Assembly (NCBI GenBank): GCA_003164785.1
Contig: PLUE01000062.1
Coordinates: forward strand, 1-64,000
Direction of reading: 5' to 3'
From: Gammaproteobacteria bacterium
GTDB lineage: Bacteria > Pseudomonadota > Gammaproteobacteria > Steroidobacterales > Steroidobacteraceae
Length of the DNA: 64,000 nt
Within the stretch, counting starts at the first letter, position 1. Each line of letters begins with the position of its first letter. The notes beneath the pieces were generated by a model. That model was given only the letters and a program-made list of their open reading frames with translations. It was not told the DNA's origin and searched no databases. Below, in pieces: positions 3,226 through 46,042 of this stretch. Both the position numbers and the translations under genes were made by a program.

Positions 3226-4677
3226 CTAGTGCGCCGCCACCGGCGCAATCGAGCCGCCGAGCGCCTGGAACAGAGCTGCCGTGTCGGCGTACCGATTCGT
3301 GCGCGCCTGCGCCAACGTCACGACGGCTTGCTCATAGCTTTGCTCCGACGTGACCAGCGCCAGGTAGCCCACGGAACCCAGCTCCAGCTGGTGATGGGCA
3401 ACGCCCAAGGTCTTCCGAGCGGCCTCTTCGGCACGGCTCGCGGCGTTTAGCGCATCCGCATCCGCATCGAGCGCGTGCAAGGCGTCGGCGACATTTTGGA
3501 AGGCTGTCAAGACCGCCGATTTATAGGCTGCCCCTGCCTGATCGAGCGCGGCATCGGCAGCACGCTTGCGGTGGATGAGCGTGCCGCCTTGGAACAGCGT
3601 TTGGGTTGCGTTGGCGCCGATGCTCCAGAAACCGGTGCCTGGCTTGAATAGATCGCTCAACAGCGTCGCGGTACTTCCGATATTGCCGCTGATGGTGAAC
3701 TGCGGCAGTAGATTCGCGATCGCCACGCCCACTTGGGCGGTCGCGGCATGCAATTGCGCTTCCGCCGCCCGGACATCCGGGCGCCTTTCAACGAGTTGCG
3801 ACGGTACGCCGAGCGGTAGATCGGTCGGCAGCACCAATTTCTCCAACTCGAAGTGCACGGGCTTCATGTCGGCCGGCACATGGCCCGTAAGGACTGCCAG
3901 TTGATCGCGCGCCTGATACAGCTGTTTCTGCAGCGGCGGTAAAGTGCCCTCCAATTGCGCCAGCGCCGCGTCCTGGGCATAGACATCGACTTCCGCAACC
4001 GCGCCAAGTTCGAGCTCGCGACGAAGCGCGCCCAGGGCCTCGCGCTCCAACGCGATCACGTGCTCGGTGCCCGCGATCTGCGCGCGCAGCCCCGCTTCCT
4101 GAATCGCCGTCGTCACGACGTTGGCAGTCAGGGTCAGATAGGTCGCATCGAGTTGAAAACGGTTCGCTTCGGCCTGGGCCGCGAGCGACTCGACCGCCCG
4201 ACGATTGGCGCCGAAGATGTCGGGGACGTAGGAGATCGTCACTTGCGGCGTGAATAAATTGTATAGAGGCGTACCGGAGTTCAGCGTCGGCTGGAGCACG
4301 CCGACCGCGTCCCGATTTCGGGTCGCGTCGAAGGTTCCGTCGACTGCCGGAAAGAACGAGCCGCGTTGCGCGGCCGTATTCTCGAGCGCCTGACGCAAGG
4401 CTGCCTGTGCCGATTGCACGTCGGGATTGGCGCGCAGCGCCTCATCGACGAGCGAGTCGAGTTCGTCCGATCCGAACAGCGTCCACCAGTTCCTCGGCAC
4501 ATCCTGACCGTCCAGGAACCGTTGCGCAGCGCCGCCTTCGCCCGGTGCCGAAGCCGTCGAGGCGGCGTGCGGCTCGGCCGTGAAACGATCGACGTTCAAG
4601 GGAGCGGGCCGGTGGAAATTCGGCCCGACGCAGGCGCTCACCGCGGCGACCGCCACGCAGATGACGAAGCGCCTCAC
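3226..4677 (-). CDS. outer membrane efflux lipoprotein (NodT/CusC-like) of an RND system
   Basis: VRRFVICVAVAAVSACVGPNFHRP lipobox; OEP repeats; GTG start overlaps the RND transporter stop. Confidence 0.88.
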   Translation of the reverse strand: MRRFVICVAVAAVSACVGPNFHRPAPLNVDRFTAEPHAASTASAPGEGGAAQRFLDGQDVPRNWWTLFGSDELDSLVDEALRANPDVQSAQAALRQALENTAAQRGSFFPAVDGTFDATRNRDAVGVLQPTLNSGTPLYNLFTPQVTISYVPDIFGANRRAVESLAAQAEANRFQLDATYLTLTANVVTTAIQEAGLRAQIAGTEHVIALEREALGALRRELELGAVAEVDVYAQDAALAQLEGTLPPLQKQLYQARDQLAVLTGHVPADMKPVHFELEKLVLPTDLPLGVPSQLVERRPDVRAAEAQLHAATAQVGVAIANLLPQFTISGNIGSTATLLSDLFKPGTGFWSIGANATQTLFQGGTLIHRKRAADAALDQAGAAYKSAVLTAFQNVADALHALDADADALNAASRAEEAARKTLGVAHHQLELGSVGYLALVTSEQSYEQAVVTLAQARTNRYADTAALFQALGGSIAPVAAH

Positions 4678-21612: not shown

Positions 21613-22533
21613 CTAATGGATGTGGGCCAGAATCCCTTCCAATTCGTCGAGGCTGTTGTACGAGACAACGAGCTTCCCCTTTCCGGACGAAGCGTGTTGA
21701 AACAGGACCTTGGCGCCGAGTTTGTCGGCCAACTCCATCTCCAGACGATGAATGTCGGGGTCGACCTTGGCGGGGGTGTTGGCGCTCCGAGCGGCAGGCG
21801 TCAGCAGGCGCCGCACCAGCGCCTCGGTGTCCCGCACCGACAAACCTTTACTGGCGACTAGGTTTGCAACCTCGATCTGCTGTCGGCGAGTGGTCAGACC
21901 AAGCAGCGCCCGCGCATGCCCCATTTCGATGTTGCGCTGCTCCAGGAGCTGCTTGACCTCATCGGCGAGCTCCATCAACCGCAGCAAATTGCTCACCGCC
22001 GCCCGCGAACGGCCCACGGCTTCGGCAGCCGCCTGATGGGTAAGGCCGAATTCGTCGATCAATCGCGCCAGCGCCCGCGCCTCTTCCAGCGGATTCAGAT
22101 TCTCTCGCTGGATGTTTTCGATGAGCGCCATCGCGACGGCTGCCTCGTCGGGCACATCGCGAATGATCGCGGGAATTTCGGAGATCCCCGCCATCTGCGC
22201 TGCACGCCAACGGCGTTCGCCGGCGATGATTTCATAGCGCTGCGATTCGCCCGGATTCGCCGGCGCGAGCGGCCTCACCAGAATGGGTTGAATCAAGCCC
22301 TGCGCCTTGATCGAATCGGCGAGTTCGCTCAACGTCTCCGGACGCATGTCCACGCGAGGTTGATACTTGCCGCGCGACAGCAGATCCAAGGGCAGGCTTG
22401 CCAGGCGGTCGCCGACCAGCGGCGCCCCGGATGACTGCGGCGGCGGAGCGGAGGGAGCCCGCGCACGCTGCGCGAGCAGCGGACTGAGTTCTGCAAGACC
22501 ACGACCCAAAGACGGCCTTTTGCCCAGCGCCAT
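21613..22533 (-). CDS. parB: chromosome partitioning protein ParB
   Basis: KYQPRVDM, AGERRWRAAQMAG, IENIQRENLNPLEEA motifs. Confidence 0.97.
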   Translation of the reverse strand: MALGKRPSLGRGLAELSPLLAQRARAPSAPPPQSSGAPLVGDRLASLPLDLLSRGKYQPRVDMRPETLSELADSIKAQGLIQPILVRPLAPANPGESQRYEIIAGERRWRAAQMAGISEIPAIIRDVPDEAAVAMALIENIQRENLNPLEEARALARLIDEFGLTHQAAAEAVGRSRAAVSNLLRLMELADEVKQLLEQRNIEMGHARALLGLTTRRQQIEVANLVASKGLSVRDTEALVRRLLTPAARSANTPAKVDPDIHRLEMELADKLGAKVLFQHASSGKGKLVVSYNSLDELEGILAHIH

Positions 22534-22536
22534 GAT

Positions 22537-23349
22537 TTAGCTTCCCGACAACGTAGGATCGGATTGTACGGGCGCCGCCGCCACATCGTCGCGGCGAATC
22601 ATTTCGCCGGCCAGGGCGAGATAGGCGAGGGCGCCGCGCGATTCCTTGTCATGAAATAGTGCCGGCTTGCCGAAGCTCGGCGCCTCGGCGAGACGCACAT
22701 TGCGTGGAATCATCGTGCGGAACACTTTGTCGCCGAAATGCTGGGTCAACTGCGCCGACACCTCGTTCGCGAGATTGTTACGGGGATCGAACATCGTGCG
22801 CAGCAGGCCCTCGATCTCGAGTTCCGGGTTCAGCGAGCCACGAATCTGTTCGATGGTCTGGGTGAGCGCGCTCAAGCCTTCGAGGGCGTAATACTCGCAC
22901 TGCATGGGAACCATCACCGAATCGGCAGCCACCAATGCGTTCAAGGTCAGCATATTGAGCGAGGGCGGACAGTCGACCAGAATGACGTCGAAGTTGTCGC
23001 GAATCAGCTTCAGCGCAACCCGCAATTTGAACTCCCGACCCACGTTCATCGTCAACAACCGCACTTCCGCAACCGTCAGATCTTGGTTCGCCGGCATGAG
23101 CATGAAACCACCATACTCAACTGGCACCAGAGCCTCCGCCGCGGAGCAATCGCCGAGCAGCACGTCGCATGTGGTTTTGGCCACGGAATTTTTGTCGATC
23201 CCGCACCCCATGGTGGCATTGCCCTGAGGATCCAGGTCGATCAACAGAACGCGGCGCTTGGTGGCCGCCAGGGAGGCCGCGAGGTTGACCGCGGTGGTCG
23301 TCTTACCGACCCCGCCTTTTTGATTGGCGACAGCAATGACCCGTTTCAT
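22537..23349 (-). CDS. parA: chromosome partitioning ATPase ParA
   Basis: NQKGGVGKTTTAVNLAASLA deviant Walker A. Confidence 0.97.
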   Translation of the reverse strand: MKRVIAVANQKGGVGKTTTAVNLAASLAATKRRVLLIDLDPQGNATMGCGIDKNSVAKTTCDVLLGDCSAAEALVPVEYGGFMLMPANQDLTVAEVRLLTMNVGREFKLRVALKLIRDNFDVILVDCPPSLNMLTLNALVAADSVMVPMQCEYYALEGLSALTQTIEQIRGSLNPELEIEGLLRTMFDPRNNLANEVSAQLTQHFGDKVFRTMIPRNVRLAEAPSFGKPALFHDKESRGALAYLALAGEMIRRDDVAAAPVQSDPTLSGS

Positions 23350-24029
23350 GACTTGCTCGATGGGTGAACGGTTGCGGCAGCCCGGGCGCCTCGGGCCAAT
23401 GCCGGTGAGAGTTCCACAAGATGCCGCTCATCGTCCAGTCCGGGCAGCTTCAGCCGATGAACGGCGACGACCCGGAAGGATTTTGGCACCGCGGCCATCT
23501 CCTCGTCCGGGCGCCTGCCCTTCATGGCCAGCATTCTCCCATCCGGCGCGCACAGGTGCCCGGCATATGCGACGAAGTCGGCCAGCGACGAGAGAGCGCG
23601 CGCCATCACCGTATCGAACAATTCGAACGGCCGGTAGGTTTCGGCCCGTGCATGAACCACATCCACGTTGCGGCAACCGACGCGGTCGGCGGTCTGCAAC
23701 ACGAATCGAGCCTTCTTGCCGATGCTTTCGATGAGCGAGAAACGTCGTTCGGGATTGATGATGGATAGCGGCAGTCCGGGGAAACCCGCGCCGGTGCCGA
23801 CATCAGCAAGCCGCAGGCCACGCAGGTAGGGCTGCAGACTCAGACTGTCGAGAATGTGCTTTCGCAGCATTCCGGGCCGATCGCGGATGGCAGTCAGATT
23901 GAACTGCGAGTTTGCCGTTTCCAATTCATCGACCAAACGCAGTGATTTCTCGGCCAATTCGGGGCCCAGCACGATCCCGAGGTCCAACGCGCCGCCGATC
24001 AGGATTTTCATTTCGTCTTCGCGCGTCAT
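23346..24029 (-). CDS. rsmG: 16S rRNA (guanine527-N7)-methyltransferase
   Basis: FNLTAIRD, HILDSL, DVGTGAGFPGLPLSI motifs; overlaps parA by 4 bp. Confidence 0.95.
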   Translation of the reverse strand: MTREDEMKILIGGALDLGIVLGPELAEKSLRLVDELETANSQFNLTAIRDRPGMLRKHILDSLSLQPYLRGLRLADVGTGAGFPGLPLSIINPERRFSLIESIGKKARFVLQTADRVGCRNVDVVHARAETYRPFELFDTVMARALSSLADFVAYAGHLCAPDGRMLAMKGRRPDEEMAAVPKSFRVVAVHRLKLPGLDDERHLVELSPALARGARAAATVHPSSKS

Positions 24030-39328: not shown

Positions 39329-39501
39329 AGCGCAACTTCAGGAAACTTTAAGGGGCAAAATCAAGGAACTACATGATTTGCGAAAGGCGGCAAGGGTACT
39401 TAGAGCGGGCGGATGTGTCAATAGACGCACCCGTCACTTGGAGCTAGACTCCCTGCCCTTTCGTTAATTCTGCCCCATTGCCGCAATCTAGGAGAGCGCT
39501 C

Positions 39502-40860
39502 TTGTCGGAGTCGCTATGGAATCGCTGTCTGCGTGTGCTCGAGAGCGAACTCCCGGTGCAGCAGTTCAATACATGGGTGCGGCCGCTGCAGGCGATCGAG
39601 CGTGACGGTGAATTGCGCCTGCTGGCGCCGAATCGGTACGTTATCGAGTGGTTGGGTGAGAACTCACTTCCCCGGATCAGGGAACTGCTCCTGGAGTTTG
39701 CGGAGGGCGTTGCTCCGGATCTCGTTCTTGACGTCGGCACCAGGGCGGGCGTCGTGAGCAGCATCGCGAGCGTCAAGAGCGCAAATGATGCGGTGAGTCA
39801 GGCGGCGGCCAGATCGCGCCGCATGGCACCGATGGTCCTGGGCGGCCGGATCAATGCGGACTTCACGTTCGCAGGTTTCGTCGAAGGCAAGAGCAATCAA
39901 CTCGCCAAGGCCGCCGCCATCCAGGTCGCTGGCAATCCGGGCAAGGCCTATAATCCGCTGTTCATCTATGGCGGTGTCGGGTTGGGCAAGACGCACCTGA
40001 TGCACGCGGTTGCAAACCGGATCAAGGAGAACAACTCCGAGGCCCGTATAGCGTACGTGCATAGCGAGCGTTTCGTCGGCGATATGGTGAAGGCGCTGCA
40101 ACACAACACCATCAACGACTTCAAGTCAGCCTATCGGTCGTTGGACGCGCTAATGATCGACGATATCCAGTTTTTTGCAGGAAAGGAGCGCTCTCAGGAA
40201 GAGTTCTTCCATACTTTCAATGCGTTGCTCGAGAGCCAGCAACAGGTCATTCTGACCTGTGATCGGTATCCCAAGGAGGTCGACGGCCTGGAAGAGCGGT
40301 TGAAGTCGCGCTTCGGCTGGGGATTGACGGTTGCGATCGAGCCGCCGGAATTGGAGACTTGCGTCGCGATTTTGATGAGCAAGGCGGCGATGTCGCATGT
40401 GGATTTGCCGGAGGAAGTCGCATTCTTCGTCGCGAAGCGGATTCGATCGAACGTACGCGAGTTGGAGGGCGCATTGCGTCGGGTGGTGGCCACATCGCAC
40501 TTTACAGGGCGCCCGATTACATTGGAGTTTGCGAAAGAGGCGCTTCGGGATTTGCTGGCGCTGCAGGAAAGGCTGGTGACAGTGGAGAATATCCAGAAGA
40601 CTGTCGCCGAATACTACAAGATCAGGATCGCGGATCTGTTGTCGAAGCGGCGTAGCCGTTCCATTGCCAGGCCGCGTCAGGTGGCGATGGCGTTGGCGAA
40701 GGAATTGACCAATCACAGTCTGCCCGAGATCGGGGATGCTTTTGGCGGTCGGGATCACACTACCGTGTTGCATGCGTGTAGGAAAATCAAAGAGTTACGT
40801 GAATCTGAGCGCCGGATAGGCGAAGACTATATGAACCTGTTGAGAACTCTCGCGGGATGA
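39502..40860 (+). CDS. dnaA: chromosomal replication initiator DnaA
   Basis: [16 protein letters not shown]-terminal [18 protein letters not shown] start at 39502 preceded by AGGAGAG. Confidence 0.97.
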
Positions 40861-41080
40861 GGGGGAGAACCTGTGGATGAAACTGTGGATAAAGTTATAC
40901 ACAGGTCCGCGACAGGTTTCGAACCGGCAGTGGACAGGTGCACAGCAGGGTTAAGGCGAGTATAACAATCTGATTAATATGGTTTTTGTGGGCTTATACA
41001 GAAATGTGCGCGCCCTCATAATCATAGTAATAATCTCTTATTAAGAATCTAAGATTAAGAATGTCCAGACGGGTGTGCCC
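40861..41080. other. oriC: candidate chromosomal origin oriC (dnaA-dnaN intergenic)
   Basis: DnaA boxes TGTGGATGA 40872-40880, TGTGGATAA 40884-40892 (perfect), TTATACACA 40895-40903; AT-rich tract about 40965-41065. Confidence 0.8.
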
Positions 41081-42178
41081 ATGAAATTGATGGCGGAGAG
41101 AGAAAAATTATTGGCGCCTTTGCAGGCGGTGATCGGTGTGGTGGAACGCCGTCAAACGATGCCGGTGCTCGCGAATGTGTTGCTCGGTGTGCGGGATGGC
41201 CGGCTGTCGATCACGGCCACGGATCTAGAGGTGGAGTTGGTGGCGGGGACTGAGGTGACGGTTCAGGATGCGGGCGATATCACAGTGCCGGGGCGAAAGT
41301 TTTTGGATATTTTGCGAGCGCTGCCGGAGAAGGTCGCGGTGTCGCTCAGCGTCGAGGGCGAGAAGGTGGTCATCAAGGCAGGGCGCAGCCGTTTCAGCTT
41401 GGTGACGTTACCTGCGGTGGAATTTCCCGTCATCGACGATATCAACGCGCAGCAGACCGTGCAGGTGTCGCGGAAGGAATTGTTGCGCTTGCTCGAGAAG
41501 ACGCATTTTTCGATGGCTCAGCAAGACGTCCGCTATTACCTCAATGGGATGCTGTTGGAGATTGATGGACAGACGCTGCGGGCGGTCGCCACTGACGGCC
41601 ATCGCCTCGCATTGTGCGAAGCGACATTGGCGGCGAAAGCAAAGAGCTCGCAACAGGTGATTGTGCCGCGCAAGGGGGTGCTCGAGTTGCAACGGGTGCT
41701 GACTGAGGATGGCAATGCTGATTTGGCTATCGGTACGAATCACGTTCGTGCGCAGATCGGTGATGTGCGCTTCACGTCGAAGCTCATCGATGGCCGTTTT
41801 CCAGAATATTCGCGGGTCATACCGGCAGCTGCGGCGAATGCCATACGTGCGGATCGGGATGTTTTGCGGGCTGCGCTGCAACGCACTGCGATTTTGTCAA
41901 ATGAGAAATATCGCGGGATCCGCATAACCGTGAAGAGCACGGCTTTGACCGTTCAGGCGCATAACCCCGAGCAGGAAGAGGCCGAAGAAGAGATCGAAGT
42001 CGCTTATGCGGGTGCGGATTTGGAAGTGGGCTTCAACGTGAACTACTTGTTGGATGCCCTGGCCGCGATCGATGGTCAAGAGGTTGAATTGGGTCTGACG
42101 GACAGCAATAGCAGTTGTTTGATTCGTTCGCCAGGAAATGGGTCGGCGCGGTACGTCGTCATGCCAATGAGGTTGTAG
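41081..42178 (+). CDS. dnaN: DNA polymerase III beta sliding clamp
   Basis: MKLMAEREKLLAPLQAVIGVVERRQTMPVLANVLL; C-terminal YVVMPMRL. Confidence 0.98.
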   Translation: MKLMAEREKLLAPLQAVIGVVERRQTMPVLANVLLGVRDGRLSITATDLEVELVAGTEVTVQDAGDITVPGRKFLDILRALPEKVAVSLSVEGEKVVIKAGRSRFSLVTLPAVEFPVIDDINAQQTVQVSRKELLRLLEKTHFSMAQQDVRYYLNGMLLEIDGQTLRAVATDGHRLALCEATLAAKAKSSQQVIVPRKGVLELQRVLTEDGNADLAIGTNHVRAQIGDVRFTSKLIDGRFPEYSRVIPAAAANAIRADRDVLRAALQRTAILSNEKYRGIRITVKSTALTVQAHNPEQEEAEEEIEVAYAGADLEVGFNVNYLLDALAAIDGQEVELGLTDSNSSCLIRSPGNGSARYVVMPMRL

Positions 42179-42180
42179 CG

Positions 42181-43251
42181 ATGTCGCTACGGCGAATGCA
42201 GGTGACGGATTACCGTTGCCTGCGTTCGGCCGATTTGGAATTGGATCGTAGGTTCACCCTCATCAGTGGGCCGAACGCGTCGGGCAAGACGAGCCTCCTC
42301 GAGGCCATTTACGTCCTCGGCCGCGGCCGATCATTCCGTACCCGACAATTGAACCATTTGATACGAACGGGCGCGGAGCGCTTCGTTGTTTTCGGTGAAG
42401 TGGAATTGGCTGAACGGATTGTTCCGCTGGGCGTTGAGGGATCCAATGGGGGTGTTCGTGCCAGGGCCGGTGGGGCGCCGGTGGGGTCGCTGGCGGAGCT
42501 GGCGGTGGCGTTACCGGCGCAGATCATCGATCCGGAGATCCACCGGCTGATTGAGGAAGGTCCGAGCCAGCGTCGACGATTCCTCGATTGGGGTGTGTTC
42601 CACGTGGAACATTCGTTCGTGAAGTCCTGGCAGGCGTATCAACAGGTGCTTCGTCAGCGAAATGCGGCGCTGCGACTTCGACAGCCTCGCGCTGTTGTAT
42701 CTGCCTGGGATGGGGAGCTCCTGCGCCTGGCTGCCATGATCGACGCAGCACGTTCGCGCTACGTGCTGGATCTCGAGTCCGCTGCACGCTCCATCGCGGA
42801 TCGACTGCTACGAATGGAGCTTGCTCTGACCTATCGATCAGGCTGGAGTCGGGAAATGAGCTTCGCGGATGCCTTGGAGCGCAGTTGGCCCCATGACTAT
42901 GAGGTCGGTAGCACGTCGGTGGGTCCACAGCGAGCTGAGTTAACGATTCGGCTCGATGGACTGGCCGTGAAGGACAGGATATCGCGGGGTCAACAGAAAT
43001 TGCTTGCTGCCTCGTTGTTGATTGCTCAGATCAAGCTTTTTCCTAGTAACGGCGACGTGCGACCGACATTGTTGTTGGATGATCCGTCTGCGGAGCTGGA
43101 CGATGATCGGCTCGCTAGACTAATCGAGGAGGTCTCGCGAGAGACGGTGCAGTTGATTGTCACCAGTCTCGATCCGGAGCTTATGGCCTTTGGCGTGCCG
43201 GGCCGCCGGTACAGAATCGCAGACGGCATCGTGACACCCAGCGATATCTAA
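42181..43251 (+). CDS. recF: DNA replication and repair protein RecF
   Basis: SGPNASGKTSLLEAIYVLGRGRSFR Walker A; LLLDDPSAELD. Confidence 0.97.
   Translation: MSLRRMQVTDYRCLRSADLELDRRFTLISGPNASGKTSLLEAIYVLGRGRSFRTRQLNHLIRTGAERFVVFGEVELAERIVPLGVEGSNGGVRARAGGAPVGSLAELAVALPAQIIDPEIHRLIEEGPSQRRRFLDWGVFHVEHSFVKSWQAYQQVLRQRNAALRLRQPRAVVSAWDGELLRLAAMIDAARSRYVLDLESAARSIADRLLRMELALTYRSGWSREMSFADALERSWPHDYEVGSTSVGPQRAELTIRLDGLAVKDRISRGQQKLLAASLLIAQIKLFPSNGDVRPTLLLDDPSAELDDDRLARLIEEVSRETVQLIVTSLDPELMAFGVPGRRYRIADGIVTPSDI
42596..42611. promoter_or_regulatory. parS: parS site (TGTTCCACGTGGAACA, perfect consensus) inside recF
   Basis: exact 16-bp palindrome. Confidence 0.93.
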
Positions 43252-43267
43252 TGTTCCACGTGGAACC
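43252..43267. promoter_or_regulatory. parS: parS site (TGTTCCACGTGGAACC, 15/16) immediately after recF stop
   Basis: 15/16 match to parS consensus. Confidence 0.9.

Positions 43268-43615: not shown

Positions 43616-46042
<2,427 letters not shown>

Follow-up and report, generated by a model that had tools for sequence, protein, structure and literature searches.

The 64,000-nucleotide stretch of DNA analyzed here (the window) carries a parS site written into the codons of recF. Judged by its sequence, this site is a near-certain functional parS of a kind already known, and its interest lies in a constraint that is class-wide, paired and protein-shaping. The site (site 1, 42596-42611, TGTTCCACGTGGAACA) is a perfect palindrome with 0 mismatches to the 16-bp pattern TGTTYCACGTGRAACA, as the original prediction of a consensus parS had stated. 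It lies in frame, within the DW-G-[VLM]-FHV[EK] segment of the encoded protein, and its codons GTG TTC CAC GTG GAA CAT read VFHVEH. Both the exact match and the identity of the host gene, recF by the family model TIGR00611, were confirmed. Given this gene's own codon usage, the chance of the VFHVEH peptide appearing in parS spelling is ~1.6%. The relevant features of the window are as follows.

21613-22533, minus strand: parB, encoding R177 and G205 and the GERRWRA and ENxxR motifs

22537-23349, minus strand: parA, a Walker ATPase gene adjoining parB; ParA-family models score below their curated cut-offs (NF041546, 109 bits)

23346-24029, minus strand: rsmG (gidB) (TIGR00138, 156 bits)

39478-40860, plus strand: dnaA, replication initiator (TIGR00362, 585 bits)

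41075-42178, plus strand: dnaN, DNA polymerase III beta clamp (TIGR00663, 366 bits)

42181-43251, plus strand: recF (TIGR00611, 324 bits against a cut-off of 172)

42596-42611, no strand assigned: parS site 1, TGTTCCACGTGGAACA, intragenic in recF; counterpart of Pseudomonas aeruginosa parS1

43252-43267, no strand assigned: parS site 2, TGTTCCACGTGGAACC; counterpart of the C-terminal coding parS of relatives (xFHVEHG), displaced past the recF stop

43628-46042, plus strand: gyrB, DNA gyrase subunit B (TIGR01059, 1013 bits)

The family models give the gene order dnaA, dnaN, recF, gyrB, which places site 1 in an origin-proximal cluster, ~1.7 kb past the dnaA stop. The recF frame is open from 42115; its likely start is the ATG at 42181, directly after dnaN, and its stop is the TAA at 43249-43251. 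The interval between dnaA and dnaN holds two DnaA-box-like sequences (TGTGGATAA and TTATACACA, at 40884 and 40895; together 40884-40903), and the GC skew climbs over 38-44 kb. Taken together, the position of this pair after dnaA and the rise in skew mean that the origin may flank dnaA on either side.

A cognate parAB pair lies beside rsmG on the same chromosome (21.6-24.0 kb), rsmG being the usual neighbour of chromosomal parAB. These genes are 19-21 kb from site 1, in agreement with the ~20 kb given originally. The encoded ParB has the residues of a parS-reading protein: its R177 and G205 correspond to Caulobacter R173 and G201, two parS-contacting residues that ParB orthologs conserve (PMC7383237). 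Across 28 related ParB proteins the parS-reading helix hardly varies, and the closest solved chains to the window ParB (7bnk, 6t1f and 1vz0) are all chromosomal ParB.

The whole 5.85 Mb assembly to which the window belongs (75 contigs, 99.7% complete, contamination 6.45%) was scanned for parS. Sites with at most one mismatch were found only at 42596 and 43252, and two-mismatch sites were no commoner across the assembly than matches to a backwards-pattern control. A chance match was ruled out on the grounds that only two sites with at most one mismatch occur in this genome, 656 bp apart.

The original prediction was right about site 1 and overlooked its partner at 43252-43267, the counterpart of the second coding parS of most relatives. 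Site 2 (TGTTCCACGTGGAACC) has 1 mismatch to TGTTYCACGTGRAACA, and its first base directly follows the recF stop TAA. The window's nearest relative (L169, 68% RecF identity), an uncultured Gammaproteobacteria MAG from permafrost palsa, has its site 2 at 4067-4082, one base after the recF stop; the distance from site 1 to site 2 is 651 bp in that genome and 656 bp in the window. C-terminal FHVE is absent from RecF of both the window (RRYRIADGIV) and L169 (RRFTVDAGRV). As the window RecF has no C-terminal xFHV[EK], and the site stands after the stop instead, we do not attribute a full coded pair to the window. Three order-level relatives (G275, G368 and G167) have site 2 inside the recF C-terminus, and in a further genome (G017) a site with one mismatch stands at the corresponding distance. 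Judging from these comparisons, site 2 has left the coding sequence in the window's lineage and moved just past the stop codon. Its retention while the coding role was dropped is a natural sign that the DNA itself matters.

The constraint on these codons was followed across the class. A codon-independent pattern search of 369 genomes for GVFHVEH or GVFHVEQ returned ~70 matches, nearly all of them spelled GTG TTY CAC GTG GAA CA, while the Gly codon preceding the Val uses all four wobble bases. With the wider pattern DWGxFHxE, the residue before Phe was V, L, M, T, A or S, in a codon nearly always ending in TG or CG. We then compared 119 recF genes (those of the window, of E. coli and of 117 other genomes in the class), drawn from the best family scores and pattern matches. 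These genes contain 195 xFHV[E/K] peptides, 94 at site 1 and 101 at site 2, the two places lying 612-648 nt apart within recF. parS codons occupy all four constrained positions in 188 of the 195, compared with 6.6 expected from same-gene codon usage, a comparison whose P value treats genes as independent and ignores shared descent. The seven most frozen codon columns of the whole recF alignment are V161, H163, V164 and E165 together with a C-terminal H, V and E, and it is these last three that reveal the second coded parS, xFHV[E/K][H/Q]G.

Wobble changes were also counted on a tree whose construction excluded both motifs. Each of the six H/V/E motif columns shows 3-5 changes, and no other conserved column has fewer than 23; the flanking glycines have 53-55, and the Phe of the motif has 25-28, its wobble base being one that parS leaves free (Y). 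This tree-aware count removes most of the shared-descent objection and supports the same conclusion. The idea that the codons may double as protein and partition site is thus supported by both counts, and the expectation that relatives would hold the synonymous sites in parS form was borne out when their recF DNA was compared.

Within the motif, RecF shows only those amino-acid changes that parS permits. Phe is preceded by V, M, L, R, T, W, A or K, and the codon of this residue has G as its last base every time (195 of 195). E/K is followed by H, Q, P or R only, in a codon that begins with C in all 197 instances. The E/K position corresponds to the R of parS, and its two states differ in their dyad match: K (AAA) occurs with TTT vs TTC at 32:3, and E (GAA) at 61:92 (P=1e-8). 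The DNA site apparently fixes RecF codons and, in part, amino acids, and RecF would carry the peptide twice because the DNA needs the site twice. The conservation of GVFHVE in RecF noted in the original prediction seems for the most part to follow from parS, and not to stand as an independent fact. Two genomes show the same central change at both recF sites: CACATG in G024 (L094; positions 452 and 1076), whose RecF reads FHME twice, and GTA in G166 (L081; positions 458 and 1079 of recF). Gene conversion or an altered reading by ParB are possible sources of these twin changes.

The recF-parS arrangement, usually paired, is found in gammaproteobacteria from well over 50 families. Exactly two sites with at most one mismatch occur in 60 of 94 genomes drawn nearly one per family, most of the listed pairs being 600-660 bp apart; in the same scan, matches to the backwards-pattern control numbered 0 or 1 per genome. 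The recF pair makes up the whole parS set in 24 of the 37 genomes of the recF set with a total count, a fraction that is not unbiased, since the set was drawn from the best family scores and pattern matches. In some genomes the layout is different: two parS sites form a close pair, separated by 26-47 bp, either at the recF end or outside the gene (G026, C5:173309-173353; G076, C412:10269-10310; G068, C8:13507-13569; G078, C11:16599-16645).

Lineages that lack ParB have lost or decayed sites; the independent losses are few and the comparison is descriptive. E. coli has no chromosomal par genes (PMC3909081), and its RecF reads GCFHNEP and MFTVEKG at the two places. G252, with no ParB match in a single search, has no parS site in recF. 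Two genomes of one genus, each a single contig of 0.9-1.0 Mb and each with no ParB match in a single search, have degraded recF sites (3 and 2 mismatches in G173, 3 and 1 in G281); G027, of the same genus, has ParB and both recF sites intact. Five genomes (G131, G215, G308, G312 and G341) lack a ParB match but were not scored as true losses, being either incomplete or fragmented, or else belonging to a genus or family in which other members have ParB. Some ParB-bearing genomes have no recF sites, for example G192, G053, G149 and G068, the last three of which keep parS elsewhere; parS therefore need not lie in recF. In one family (f34), three genomes that are 99-100% complete (G032, G177 and G284) have neither a strong RecF match nor a ParB match, hinting that recF and ParABS were lost together.

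From this sequence evidence we consider it very likely that site 1 is a working chromosomal parS, a loading site for ParB, and we infer binding, spreading and segregation in this organism. A ParB dimer would bind each of the two 16-bp sites, the palindrome inside recF and the twin 656 bp on, and ParB would spread from both sites over adjacent DNA. ParA would then move the ParB-DNA complex, and newly copied origins would separate. Since the site is spelled in codons, selection that preserves ParB binding would shape RecF as well, fixing its synonymous positions and, partly, its amino acids. On a wider scale, the recF parS pair is probably the ancestral and still the commonest gammaproteobacterial centromere, the DNA site rather than the protein having dictated two RecF stretches (xFHV[E/K][H/Q/P/R]) throughout; on this probable history, the peptide decayed with ParB loss and the second site left the coding sequence in the window's lineage.

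FHVE might instead be kept for RecF's own need, the parS match being a by-product of codon bias. The segment does lie in a well-aligned part of RecF, and its Phe is invariant at site 1 in 119 of 119 genes. However, codon usage accounts for only the 6.6 parS spellings set against the 188 seen among 195, and the residues change as parS permits (including E to K and V to R, W or T, always NNG). Nor would a need of the protein account for one peptide at two places ~206 residues apart, for E. coli and other ParB-less lineages managing without FHVE, or for the window's site 2 being maintained outside coding sequence. Conservation for the protein alone is accordingly very improbable and was rejected on the codon, residue and ParB-loss patterns. 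We give just as little credence to the palindrome acting as an mRNA hairpin, regulatory or terminator, in place of a ParB site. An RNA stem would also produce the T5-A12 and C5-G12 matching, but shuffled versions of the two 51-nt stretches fold just as well (z = -0.13 and -0.33), no T-run follows the palindromes, and the CACGTG core is without covariation. Site loss, moreover, accompanies ParB loss, and the same 16-mers are bound by ParB in P. aeruginosa (PMC4368675). The unexceptional folds and the absent T-run led us to discard a hairpin or terminator.

It is similarly hard to credit that the site is a relic unused by this organism's ParB, with the working centromere elsewhere. A 75-contig assembly could miss a stretch, but at 99.7% completeness it contains no further site with at most one mismatch; in addition, the ParB residues are intact and the wobble positions are frozen class-wide. 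A working parS in recF is the reading we retain. The wider history proposed above, if true, would be a clear case of a centromere shaping the amino-acid sequence of a protein across a bacterial class. The recF arrangement affords a two-way natural test of DNA-level selection within a coding gene. It would explain a RecF 'conserved motif' that structural work could mistake for functional, and it would offer a simple route to the centromere in unassembled gammaproteobacterial genomes. It also raises a testable question, that of the centromere's long stay in recF, a gene flanked by the replication genes dnaN and gyrB.

In the literature searched, no report of parS inside recF was found outside P. 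aeruginosa. The distribution of parS was reportedly treated by Livny et al. in 2007, who may report some of these positions.

That parS can lie inside recF is not new, as the P. aeruginosa parS sites nearest the origin are located there (PMC3909081), namely parS1 and parS2 (PMC5521831). P. aeruginosa ParB binds oligonucleotides of both in vitro (EMSA), the perfect palindrome best; any one of parS1-4 is enough for segregation, and mutation of all four gives a parS-null phenotype (PMC4368675). As that phenotype comes from four sites mutated together, neither recF site is shown to be essential alone. The parS mutants in Table 1 of the same study were designed to leave proteins unchanged (PMC4368675): the parS1 changes fall at wobble positions of V-F-H-V-E-P, and in parS2 the TG is untouched, as the Met codon of Met-F-H-V-E requires. 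These readings match the two recF places found here. P. aeruginosa and the window share both the gene and the sequences (parS1 is TGTTCCACGTGGAACC and parS2 is TGTTCCACGTGGAACA). They differ in that the window's perfect site is site 1 and its site 2 lies just past the recF stop, and in that the window genome has two parS sites only whereas P. aeruginosa has ten putative sites. Set against chromosomal ParABS centromeres elsewhere (Caulobacter, Bacillus, Corynebacterium), the recF-coded arrangement was seen only in Gammaproteobacteria, its recF-context pattern occurring in 0 of ~260 genomes from other classes of the phylum. Nonetheless, the window resembles those systems in its ParB fold and motifs, in the class of its 16-bp palindrome and in its origin-near position.
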